A stretch of 64,000 nt of DNA from Salipiger abyssi (GTDB lineage: Bacteria; Pseudomonadota; Alphaproteobacteria; Rhodobacterales; Rhodobacteraceae), in NCBI RefSeq assembly GCF_001975705.1, contig NZ_CP015093.1, positions 1,054,001 to 1,118,000 on the forward strand, given 5' to 3'. The translations under genes were made by a program, and so were the position numbers. Positions 5,887-56,446 of the stretch are shown here, one piece after another. Numbering within the stretch: position 1 is the first letter of the stretch; each line of letters begins with the position of its first letter. The notes under the pieces were generated by a model. That model was given only the letters and a program-made list of their open reading frames with translations. It did not search any database and had not been told where the DNA came from.

Positions 5887-7599
5887 ATGGCGCGTCATCT
5901 CATCACCTCGGCAATCCCCTATATCAACGGGATCAAGCATCTGGGCAATCTCGTGGGCAGCCAGCTGCCCGCCGATCTGTTTGCCCGTTATCAGCGCGCC
6001 CGGGGCAACGAGGTGCTGTTCCTTTGCGCGACCGACGAACACGGCACCCCCGCCGAGCTCGCCGCCGCCAAGGCCGGCAAGCCGGTGGCGGAGTACTGCA
6101 CAGAGATGCACGAGGTTCAGGCGCAGATCGCCGAAGGCTTCCGCCTCAGCTTCGACCATTTCGGCCGCTCGTCGAGCCCGCAGAACCACAAGCTCACCCA
6201 GCATTTCGCCGGGGTGCTCGCGGATCGCGGGCTGATCCGCGAAGTCGTCGAGACGCAGATGTATTCGCCCACCGACGGGCGCTTCCTGCCCGACCGCTAT
6301 ATCGAGGGCACCTGCCCCAATTGCGGTTTCGAGGATGCGCGCGGCGACCAGTGCGACAACTGCACCAAGCAGCTCGACCCGGTCGACCTGATCAATCCGC
6401 GCTCGGTGATCTCGGGCGCCACCGATCTGGAGATGCGCGAGACCAAGCATCTCTACCTGCGCCAGTCGACCATGAAGGACGAGCTGGAAAAATGGATCGA
6501 CACCCGCGAGGGCTGGCCGGTGCTGACCACCTCCATCGCCAAGAAATGGCTGAACGACGGCGACGGCTTGCAGGATCGCGGCATCACCCGCGATCTCGAC
6601 TGGGGCATCCCCGTGAAGAGGGGCGAGGAAGACTGGCCCGGCATGGAGGGCAAGGTCTTCTATGTCTGGTTCGACGCGCCCATCGAATATATCGCCTGCG
6701 CGCAGGAATGGGTCGATGCCGGCAAGGGCAGCGACTGGCAGCGCTGGTGGCGCACCGACAAGGGCGCAGAGGACGTCACCTATACCCAGTTCATGGGCAA
6801 GGATAACGTGCCCTTCCACACGCTCAGCTTCCCGGCCACCATTCTGGGCTCGGGCGAGCCGTGGAAGCTCGTCGATTACATCAAGTCGTTCAACTACCTG
6901 AACTACGACGGCGGGCAGTTTAGCACCTCGCGCGGACGCGGCGTGTTCATGGATCAGGCGCTGGAGATCCTGCCGGCGGATTACTGGCGCTGGTGGCTGC
7001 TGAGCCACGCGCCGGAAAGCTCGGACGCGGAATTCACCTGGGAGAATTTCCAGAGCTCGGTGAACAAGGATCTGGCCGATGTGCTGGGCAATTTCGCCAG
7101 CCGCGTCACCAAGTTCTGCCGCTCGAAATTCGGAGAGGTCGTGCCCGAGGGCGGCAGCTATGGCCCGCGCGAAGAGCAGCTCATCGCCGATCTGACCGCA
7201 AAGATCCGCGAATACGAAGGCTTCATGGCCCATGCGGAGGTGCGCAAATCCGCCACCGCGCTGCGCGCCGCCTGGGTGCTGGGCAATGAATACCTGCAGG
7301 AGGCGGCGCCCTGGTCGACCTTCAAGACCGATCCCGAGACGGCGGCGGCGCAGATCCGCCTCGCGCTGAACGTGATCCGGCTCTACGCGGTGATTTCCGC
7401 CCCCTTCGTCCCCGACGCCTCGGCGCAGCTTCTGACCGCGCTCAATACGCAGGACGACAGCTGGCCCGACGATGTGCCGGCGGCGCTGGAGAGCCTGCCG
7501 GCAGGGCATGGCTTTGCCGTGCCGAAGGTGACCTTCCGCAAGATCACCGATGCCGAGCGCGAGGAGTGGCAGGCACGGTTCGCGGGCAAGCGCGACTGA
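5887..7599 (+). CDS. metG: methionine--tRNA ligase
   Basis: 570 residues. Class I synthetase with a Rossmann domain starting at [16 protein letters not shown], whose HLGN (18-21) is the HIGH signature. A zinc knuckle with Cys-143, 146, 156 and 159 follows, and QFSTSRGRG at about 344-352 stands where KMSKS is expected. The loss of canonical KMSKS is usual in the alphaproteobacterial type of MetG, to which TDEHGTPAE and the WRWWLLS motif also belong. An anticodon-binding helical domain fills the last 180 residues; no C-terminal Arc1p-like tRNA-binding domain is present. ATG 5887 matches homologue starts (MARHLITSA). Monocistronic, divergent from the aldo/keto reductase. Confidence 0.98.
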
Positions 7600-13639: not shown

Positions 13640-13966
13640 GTGAACGATCAGACGATACCCGCCCCGCCCGACGAGATGGCCAGCAATGCGCGCAGCGCCG
13701 CTTCCTTCCTGAAAACCCTGGCCCACGAGGGCCGGCTGATGATCCTGTGCCACCTCGGATCGGGCGAGAAATCGGTCGGCGAGCTGGAGGAGCTGCTCGG
13801 CATCCGGCAGGCGGCGGTGAGCCAGATGCTGGCGCGGCTGCGCGAAGAGGGGCTGGTGAGCACGCGGCGCGACGGCAAGACGATCTATTACAGCCTCGCC
13901 ACCGAGGATACCGGGCGCGTCATCGGGCTGCTCTACGAGATCTTCTGCGCCAAGAATCCCTGCTGA
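13640..13966 (+). CDS. sqrR: ArsR-family persulfide-sensing repressor, SqrR/BigR type
   Basis: 108 residues starting at a GTG codon (13640) behind an AGAGG ribosome site. ArsR winged helix: FLKTLAHEGRLMILCHL, SVGELEELLGI, RQAAVSQMLARLREEGLVSTRRDGKTIYYSL. Cys-37 and Cys-103 are 66 residues apart, exactly the spacing of Cys-41 and Cys-107 in Rhodobacter capsulatus SqrR, where they form a tetrasulfide link when sulfane sulfur is present and release DNA. A third cysteine is the last residue (108). No sulfide oxidase gene is adjacent. Probable targets in the window are the persulfide dioxygenase (49536) and the AhpD-like gene (56271, minus). Confidence 0.85.
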   Translation: MNDQTIPAPPDEMASNARSAASFLKTLAHEGRLMILCHLGSGEKSVGELEELLGIRQAAVSQMLARLREEGLVSTRRDGKTIYYSLATEDTGRVIGLLYEIFCAKNPC

Positions 13967-55932: not shown

Positions 55933-56271
55933 TCAGGCCGCCGACAGCTCGTCAAACGCGGCGAGTGCCTTGGAGCCGTACATCACGCCCGGTCCGCCGC
56001 CCATTTCGACACTGACCGCCAGCGTCTCGGCGATTTCCTCGCGGGTGGCGCCCAGGCGGATCAGCGCTTCGGTGTGGAACAGGATGCAGGGCTCGCAGCG
56101 GATCGCCACGGCAATGCCCAGCGCGACCAGCTCTTTCTGCTTGTGGCTCAGCGCGCCGTCGCCATGCAGGCTCTTGGCGATCATGCCAAAGCCCTGAGCG
56201 GTGTCGCCGATGGCGCCGTTGAAGCTTTTGACCTGCGGTTTGAGACCGGACAGCGTTTCCTTGTAGCTCAT
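55933..56271 (-). CDS. carboxymuconolactone decarboxylase family protein, AhpD-like with CxxC
   Basis: 112 residues from ATG 56271 behind GGAGGG. CMD-domain helix with KQKELVALGIAVAIRCEPCILFHTEALIRLG; Cys-59 and Cys-62 form a CxxC followed by His-66, the AhpD peroxidase-type redox site. Ends MGGGPGVMYGSKALAAFDE. A thiol-disulfide or peroxidase activity is likely rather than decarboxylation. A perfect ATTC-N8-GAAT dyad lies just upstream, at the expected transcription start, suggesting control by a SqrR-type repressor. Confidence 0.9.
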   Translation of the reverse strand: MSYKETLSGLKPQVKSFNGAIGDTAQGFGMIAKSLHGDGALSHKQKELVALGIAVAIRCEPCILFHTEALIRLGATREEIAETLAVSVEMGGGPGVMYGSKALAAFDELSAA

Positions 56272-56281
56272 GGCTCCCTCC

Positions 56282-56297
56282 ATTCAAAAATTGGAAT
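56282..56297. promoter_or_regulatory. perfect SqrR-type operator upstream of the AhpD-like gene
   Basis: ATTC-AAAAATTG-GAAT, 11 bp before the ATG on the minus strand. A minus-strand TATATC -10-like hexamer is at 56305-56300, so transcription would start near 56293, inside the dyad: repressor geometry. The consensus is recalled for SqrR/BigR. Confidence 0.55.
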
Positions 56298-56416
56298 TCG
56301 ATATACAGAAACCATGTATGCGGCAGCGCGGCAATGATCGAAGTCATACACAAGAGTGAAAGCAGGATTGCCGCTTTCACATATCTGGATGGGCCTGCGC
56401 CGAACCGCCGGGCGAA

Positions 56417-56446
56417 CCCAAGAATTTTCGTACGAAAATTCTTGGG
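56417..56446. repeat. 30-bp perfect palindrome with core TTTTCGTACGAAAA, copy 2
   Basis: Perfect dyad with 15-nt arms; CCCAAGAATTTTCGT is the left arm. Located 32 nt after the mcd stop on the minus strand, between mcd and the AhpD-like gene. Same core as copy 1 at 9659-9680; arms extend further. Confidence 0.85.

Follow-up and report, generated by a model that had tools for sequence, protein, structure and literature searches.

The locus described here raises the question of whether, in Salipiger abyssi, a gene coding for an AhpD-like protein of the carboxymuconolactone decarboxylase (CMD) family is controlled by a repressor that senses sulfane sulfur in this marine bacterium. In Rhodobacter capsulatus, the deduced binding site of the repressor SqrR is ATTC-N8-GAAT (PMC9774250) and SqrR is released via a polysulfide link between its cysteines (PMC9143464), according to the accessible parts of both papers. 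An exact copy of this palindrome, the sequence mark of a regulon target, is present in the CMD promoter, 11-26 bases 5' of the ATG (56271) and directly 5' of the ribosome-binding site. The positions of this and of the other features (Table 1) refer to the window, i.e. the whole stretch of 64,000 nucleotides that was analysed.

Table 1. Positions of the regulatory elements and genes discussed, with the evidence for each
Feature	Position	Strand	Evidence
ATTC-N8-GAAT palindrome ATTCAAAAATTGGAAT, predicted SqrR/SoxR-type operator	56282-56297	.	exact consensus; genus motif context; matrix rank
Ribosome-binding site GGAGGGAG	56274-56281	-	sequence; GGAGGG kept in L017, L018, L019
AhpD-like CMD-family protein, 112 residues, CEPC/His/Glu site	55933-56271	-	Pfam CMD and AhpD core domain
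Degenerate FNR/CRP-type box ATGACTTCGATCAT (gene strand)	56334-56347	-	2 mismatches to YTGAY-N4-RTCAR; same place as the intact boxes of relatives
SqrR-type ArsR repressor, Cys37/Cys103; candidate binder	13640-13966	+	PDB relative, cysteine pair; ortholog in 20/20 Salipiger genomes
Second exact ATTC-N8-GAAT in the window	7032-7047	.	inside coding sequence (ORF heuristic); matrix score -6.2

The CMD gene and its product

In the profile search, the CMD domain (70.3 bits, cut-off 23) and the AhpD core TIGR00778 (50.6 bits, cut-off 27.8) were both found in the encoded protein, and residues E47, C59, C62 and H66 are invariant in 111/111 aligned rows. With both domains above cut-off and a Glu/CxxC/His site, the protein belongs to the AhpD-like CMD family, as had been described in an earlier reading of the sequence alone (hereafter the sequence-only reading), which reported a 112-residue CMD-family protein with a Cys-Glu-Pro-Cys/His site. 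It shares the Glu/CxxC/His core and the short single-domain form with the AhpD alkylhydroperoxidase family (TIGR00778; PDB 5dik and 7y4r are sequence relatives). Unlike these enzymes, the Salipiger protein has no known peroxidase partner or substrate here, and the likeness comes from sequence. An alternative 116-aa reading of the open reading frame starts at an ATG at 56283, but the position of GGAGGGAG (56281-56274) fits a start at ATG 56271 and favours the shorter form. The neighbours of the gene are pheT and an acyl-CoA dehydrogenase gene, an arrangement retained in many relatives, and the idea that the Salipiger CMD gene adjoins sulfur genes was rejected on this ground. A 30-base palindrome, CCCAAGAATTTTCGTACGAAAATTCTTGGG, is present between the CMD and acyl-CoA dehydrogenase genes (56417-56446).

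Candidate repressors

The ArsR protein encoded in the window has 13ct/6o8l as its best PDB relative (E 4.9e-34), which we take to be SqrR of R. capsulatus (the match table says ArsR family only), and its Cys37 and Cys103 align with the cysteines of that protein. An ArsR fold with a cysteine pair equivalent to Cys37/Cys103 is thus encoded, which bears out the earlier claim of a SqrR-type repressor with the correct pair in this window. The BigR equivalog NF040642 was the best model listed for it, at 108.4 bits but below the curated cut-off of 155 bits. A second homolog (SoxR, 55 to 61 per cent) is encoded in 18/20 Salipiger genomes, beside the sox genes in the genome studied here, and both proteins of this genome bear the cysteine pair. 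The window SqrR and SoxR are therefore both candidate regulators of the CMD site, and sequence cannot discriminate between them. SoxR of sox gene clusters has been described in Hyphomicrobium denitrificans (PMC10451225, accessible in part); likewise, an ArsR gene adjoins the sox genes of the present genome, where an exact box separates soxW from soxX. The CMD gene, by contrast, is located outside any sox cluster. Autoregulation of the window SqrR via ATTC-N8-GAAT was considered and rejected, since in none of the 20 orthologs is an exact box present in the 200 bases 5' of the matched part.

Frequency of the palindrome

The exact consensus occurs twice in the 64-kb window against 0.57 expected, and at least two copies were obtained in 13/100 shuffles, so that the window count alone carries no significance. 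The second copy lies, by the ORF heuristic, within coding sequence and is taken as a chance match; the CMD copy is thus the single exact intergenic box of the window, as previously claimed. Genome-wide, 50 exact copies were found in 5,259,072 bases, against about 47 expected when the window rate (0.57 per 64 kb) is scaled to the genome. The sequence-only reading had proposed this search, supposing a frequency above random and holding a random one to speak against its proposal; on raw count, the frequency is indeed random. Furthermore, 20 of the 50 copies, separated by eye from the other 30, are members of an unrelated intergenic repeat (palindrome gcaaATTCCTT..AAGGAATttgc and near forms, in many cases next to another palindrome). 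Raw frequency was therefore rejected as evidence for an operator, and the exact consensus by itself proves nothing.

The repeat is an intergenic double palindrome (gcaaATTCCTTCGAAGGAATttgc beside caaatcttttcgaaaagatttg) that mimics the SqrR consensus. Its 20 exact-consensus copies in the genome under study (G000) are located near position 1500 of each of the loci L004-L008, L010, L013, L137, L146-L154, L158, L159 and L162. Many are present in Salipiger genome G012, and none of the same form was found among the 30 exact-consensus places of genome G017.

A sulfur regulon marked by the motif in Salipiger

The list of genes downstream of the genomic copies, also proposed in the sequence-only reading, is partly favourable to it: sulfur genes are present at several of the 30 non-repeat copies, while the other 20 copies fall to the repeat. 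These 30 copies are placed non-randomly. Exact boxes are present (i) before genes coding for a sulfurtransferase-SQR fusion (L130), a SulP protein (L131) and a rhodanese (L157), (ii) between soxW and soxX (L009/L049), soxW being a thioredoxin-like gene so named from its position, (iii) upstream of a SoxH-related metallohydrolase gene (L164 503-1450, minus strand), for which SoxH-related models matched below cut-off and whose box is identical in G012 and G017, and (iv) before genes coding for a TsoY-family membrane protein (L138) and an octaheme tetrathionate-reductase-family cytochrome (L156). Sulfur genes thus stand at 7/30 non-repeat copies, the TsoY family being included from its name alone. 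SoxA, SoxB, SoxX, SoxY and SoxZ are encoded in this genome with scores above the NCBIfam cut-offs.

Among 20 Salipiger genomes, the exact box is kept at 11/13 SQR, 13/13 SulP and 6/6 rhodanese genes; no exact box was found upstream of the matched part in three SQR paralogs and a rhodanese that are distantly related. From the placement at sulfur genes and this conservation, we infer that ATTC-N8-GAAT is a true regulon motif, which marks a predicted sulfur regulon in this genome and in the genus. The SoxH-related gene is likely a further member. The box of the TsoY-family gene has a counterpart upstream of that gene in G012 (L230, one spacer change) and none among the 30 G017 site loci. The octaheme cytochrome gene is doubtful as a sure member: its box scores -0.9, the G012 list contains no matching sequence, and none of the 30 G017 site loci encodes a relative of the protein.

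According to the accessible parts of PMC9774250 and PMC9143464, the R. capsulatus SqrR regulon has in common with that of Salipiger the two-cysteine repressor, the palindrome, and SQR and rhodanese targets. Salipiger differs by the addition of the AhpD-like CMD gene, a kind of target that was not found in the literature searched, part of which was available in partial text.

Matrix score and conservation of the CMD copy

The main alternative to a functional operator is a chance palindrome, arising from the AT-rich start region beside the conserved GAATGGAGGG translation signal, with the CMD gene controlled by an FNR-type box alone. We consider this possible, though unlikely. The number of exact genomic copies, about as expected, is in its favour. 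Against it, a matrix trained on 30 SQR, SulP and rhodanese sites only, with the CMD site excluded, gives the CMD box a score of 21.2, the fifth highest among the 50 exact genomic copies and the highest in the window, where the next best score is 17.6; the SQR, SulP and rhodanese sites themselves, each scored with its own gene group left out, range from 8.8 to 37.0. This rank is support, not proof, since the GAAT-RTATA flank of SQR and SulP sites is missing at the CMD copy and the AT-rich repeat copies reach 17.5 on the same matrix.

Conservation across the genus favours the chance palindrome. Within 150 bases of the gene, the exact box is found in 3/6 close orthologs and 0/12 more distant congeners, i.e. 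in 3/18 Salipiger genomes that have the gene, short of the genus-wide conservation of the SQR, SulP and rhodanese sites; a recent gain of the site would explain this low figure. In the wider set of 80 loci, two were dropped and a further one, L105, had no upstream sequence; the exact box is present in 2 of the 78 promoters scored, namely that of S. abyssi (G012 again) and one from Albibacillus (L089). The latter, the one further case outside Salipiger, was rejected as independent support, being compatible with chance as one among 78 promoters.

Conversely, G012 and G017 retain the box at the corresponding position, with its arms identical at 8/8 positions and its spacer at 5/8 in both cases, while the promoter flanks are 55-56 per cent identical (70/124 and 68/124, respectively). 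In G004, 4/8 arm bases are kept. One arm adjoins the conserved GAATGGAGGG, so that part of the arm conservation may be translational. In the more distant congener G017, 8 of the 30 non-repeat copies are kept in place: those at sox, SQR, SulP, rhodanese and SoxH-like genes, at the CMD gene, at an aminotransferase gene and beside a TniB-like ATPase gene, 5/8 being at sulfur genes. A plasmid-type pair with a doubtful counterpart (L002/L261) was left out of this count. The retention of the CMD box in such company argues against chance. The copy beside the TniB-like ATPase gene is probably mobile. The copy at the aminotransferase gene (L160 1512-1527; L247 1556-1571) lies between divergent genes in both genomes, one of them coding for a class I/II aminotransferase (judged by eye to be hemA), and forms a full palindrome in G017.

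That the palindrome is the operator of another type of regulator, fitting the short consensus by accident, is very improbable: the conserved copy at the aminotransferase gene, not an obvious sulfur gene, and the missing flank at the CMD site would agree with it, but most of the copies retained in G017 belong to sulfur genes.

The FNR-type box and the transcription start

A box of the form YTGAY-N4-RTCAR is present about 70 bases before the ATG without mismatch in 23/37 Rhodobacteraceae-type CMD promoters and with at most one mismatch in 33/37, against 0.03 and 0.89, respectively, in simple shuffles (the 37 promoters are the 39 loci picked minus two with short sequence). The box is free of mismatches in 15 of the 18 Salipiger orthologs and has at most one in 17, the sole exception being the window. 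To judge by these promoters, the FNR-type box is a deeply conserved, ancestral element of the CMD promoter, which was missed in the sequence-only reading. It is far more conserved than the SqrR-type box, which again agrees with a chance palindrome; yet the genome studied here is alone among the 18 orthologs in having a decayed FNR-type box, while its SqrR-type box is intact.

As a rule, FNR-type boxes act at -41.5. If this applies here, transcription would start near 56299 and the SqrR-type box would occupy about +3 to +18, a common location for repressors that block transcription. Judged from a TATATC at 56305-56300, the start would fall within the SqrR-type box. It is thus plausible that the box covers the expected transcription start of the CMD gene, as had been proposed.

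CMD relatives linked to ArsR and rhodanese genes

A gene coding for a SqrR/BigR-type ArsR protein is the immediate divergent neighbour of the CMD gene in 9/80 loci from genome contigs (Micavibrio, Rhizobium, Bosea and Afipia records and MAGs), and a rhodanese gene lies beside the CMD gene in four of these nine. In L104, such an ArsR gene is about 1.6 kb from the CMD gene and a rhodanese is also present; in L118, an SQR-like gene (36 per cent) is found about half a kilobase upstream. Both sensor cysteines are retained in 10/10 CMD-linked ArsR proteins. An evenly drawn set of 385 Alphaproteobacteria yielded a CMD match in 44 genomes, and 30 loci were fetched: a SqrR/BigR-type ArsR gene lies within 1.5 kb in 4/30, a clear rhodanese gene in 4/30 and a weak one in two more. 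The control, another CMD family, gave 0/30 for ArsR and 0/30 for rhodanese; the ArsR difference has p = 0.056 with this small control. In the tree, many forks of which are weak, the Salipiger gene belongs to a Rhodobacteraceae clade that does not include the ArsR-linked proteins, so the linkage supports a role of the CMD family and not of the Salipiger ortholog itself.

A compact module, with rhodanese and SqrR/BigR-type ArsR genes on the same strand and the AhpD-like CMD gene divergent, is seen in L085, L107 and L114 (also L266, L268 and L272). In YgaP, a rhodanese is joined to a membrane part, and the L107 rhodanese has a YgaP-like membrane domain. Its pairing with ArsR resembles the ygaVP operon of Escherichia coli, where YgaV is SqrR/BigR-like (PMC9774250, accessible in part); L107, L085 and L114 differ from ygaVP by the divergent CMD gene. 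According to the same part of that paper, YgaV also binds katG, which lacks ATTC-N8-GAAT, so that the motif would be dispensable for binding by such regulators.

Proposed control of the CMD gene

Our reading of binding, direction of control, induction and chemistry builds on the motif, its regulon context, its conservation pattern and the linkage in relatives. The box has the look of a genuine operator, acquired recently, of sulfur-sensing repressors, and the CMD gene is probably a new, lineage-limited addition to the SqrR/SoxR regulon. We hold it reasonably likely that the box functions as an operator for sulfane-sulfur repressors of the SqrR/SoxR type, and that the CMD gene is co-induced with the sulfur genes. 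The gene would ancestrally have been under the FNR-type box, and the SqrR-type box would be a second input gained in a Salipiger subclade. Reduced SqrR or SoxR would occupy the start region and block the promoter; persulfide or polysulfide would link Cys37 to Cys103, the repressor would leave the DNA, and the AhpD-like dithiol protein would be made along with SQR, SulP, rhodanese and Sox proteins. The enzyme would probably pass electrons to sulfane sulfur, or to its carrier proteins, via the CxxC/His/Glu site. Thioredoxin-2 is reported to reduce the polysulfide link of SqrR (PMC10044876, accessible in part), and the AhpD-like reductase might have a similar role on this link.

The control by SqrR suggested in the sequence-only reading is thus retained in modified form. 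The regulon motif, the high matrix rank, the retention in G012 and G017 and the ArsR/rhodanese linkage in relatives speak for it, and the raw count, at chance level, against it; furthermore, the site is absent from 15/18 Salipiger genomes with the gene, the candidate regulators are two and not one, and the FNR-type box is older.

More tentatively, AhpD-like dithiol proteins could form a recurrent, unrecognised arm of the alphaproteobacterial SqrR/BigR persulfide response, with the ArsR-rhodanese-CMD module in several lineages and the Salipiger gene recruited by a new operator on an FNR-type promoter; the substrates reduced by the protein would be persulfides, polysulfides or the repressor's polysulfide link, the last closing a feedback loop. 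This wider proposal is a speculative one that we do not favour at present. If the reading presented here is right, a small thiol-enzyme family would join the bacterial means of handling reactive sulfur, many genes named just 'carboxymuconolactone decarboxylase family' would receive a first testable function, and the present locus would clearly illustrate how a promoter with an older FNR-type site acquired a sulfane-sulfur operator.

The regulator belongs to a known type, and both the motif and regulons of this kind were known before; the CMD gene as a candidate member appears to be new. In the literature searched, which includes few subscription journals and some papers in partial text, no link of an AhpD-like CMD gene to SqrR, BigR, rhodanese, FnrL or persulfide sensing was found, in line with the earlier statement that a role in persulfide handling is undescribed. 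A different CMD-like protein, Pseudomonas aeruginosa PA0269, is included in a table of cysteine peptides (PMC13295329, accessible in part).
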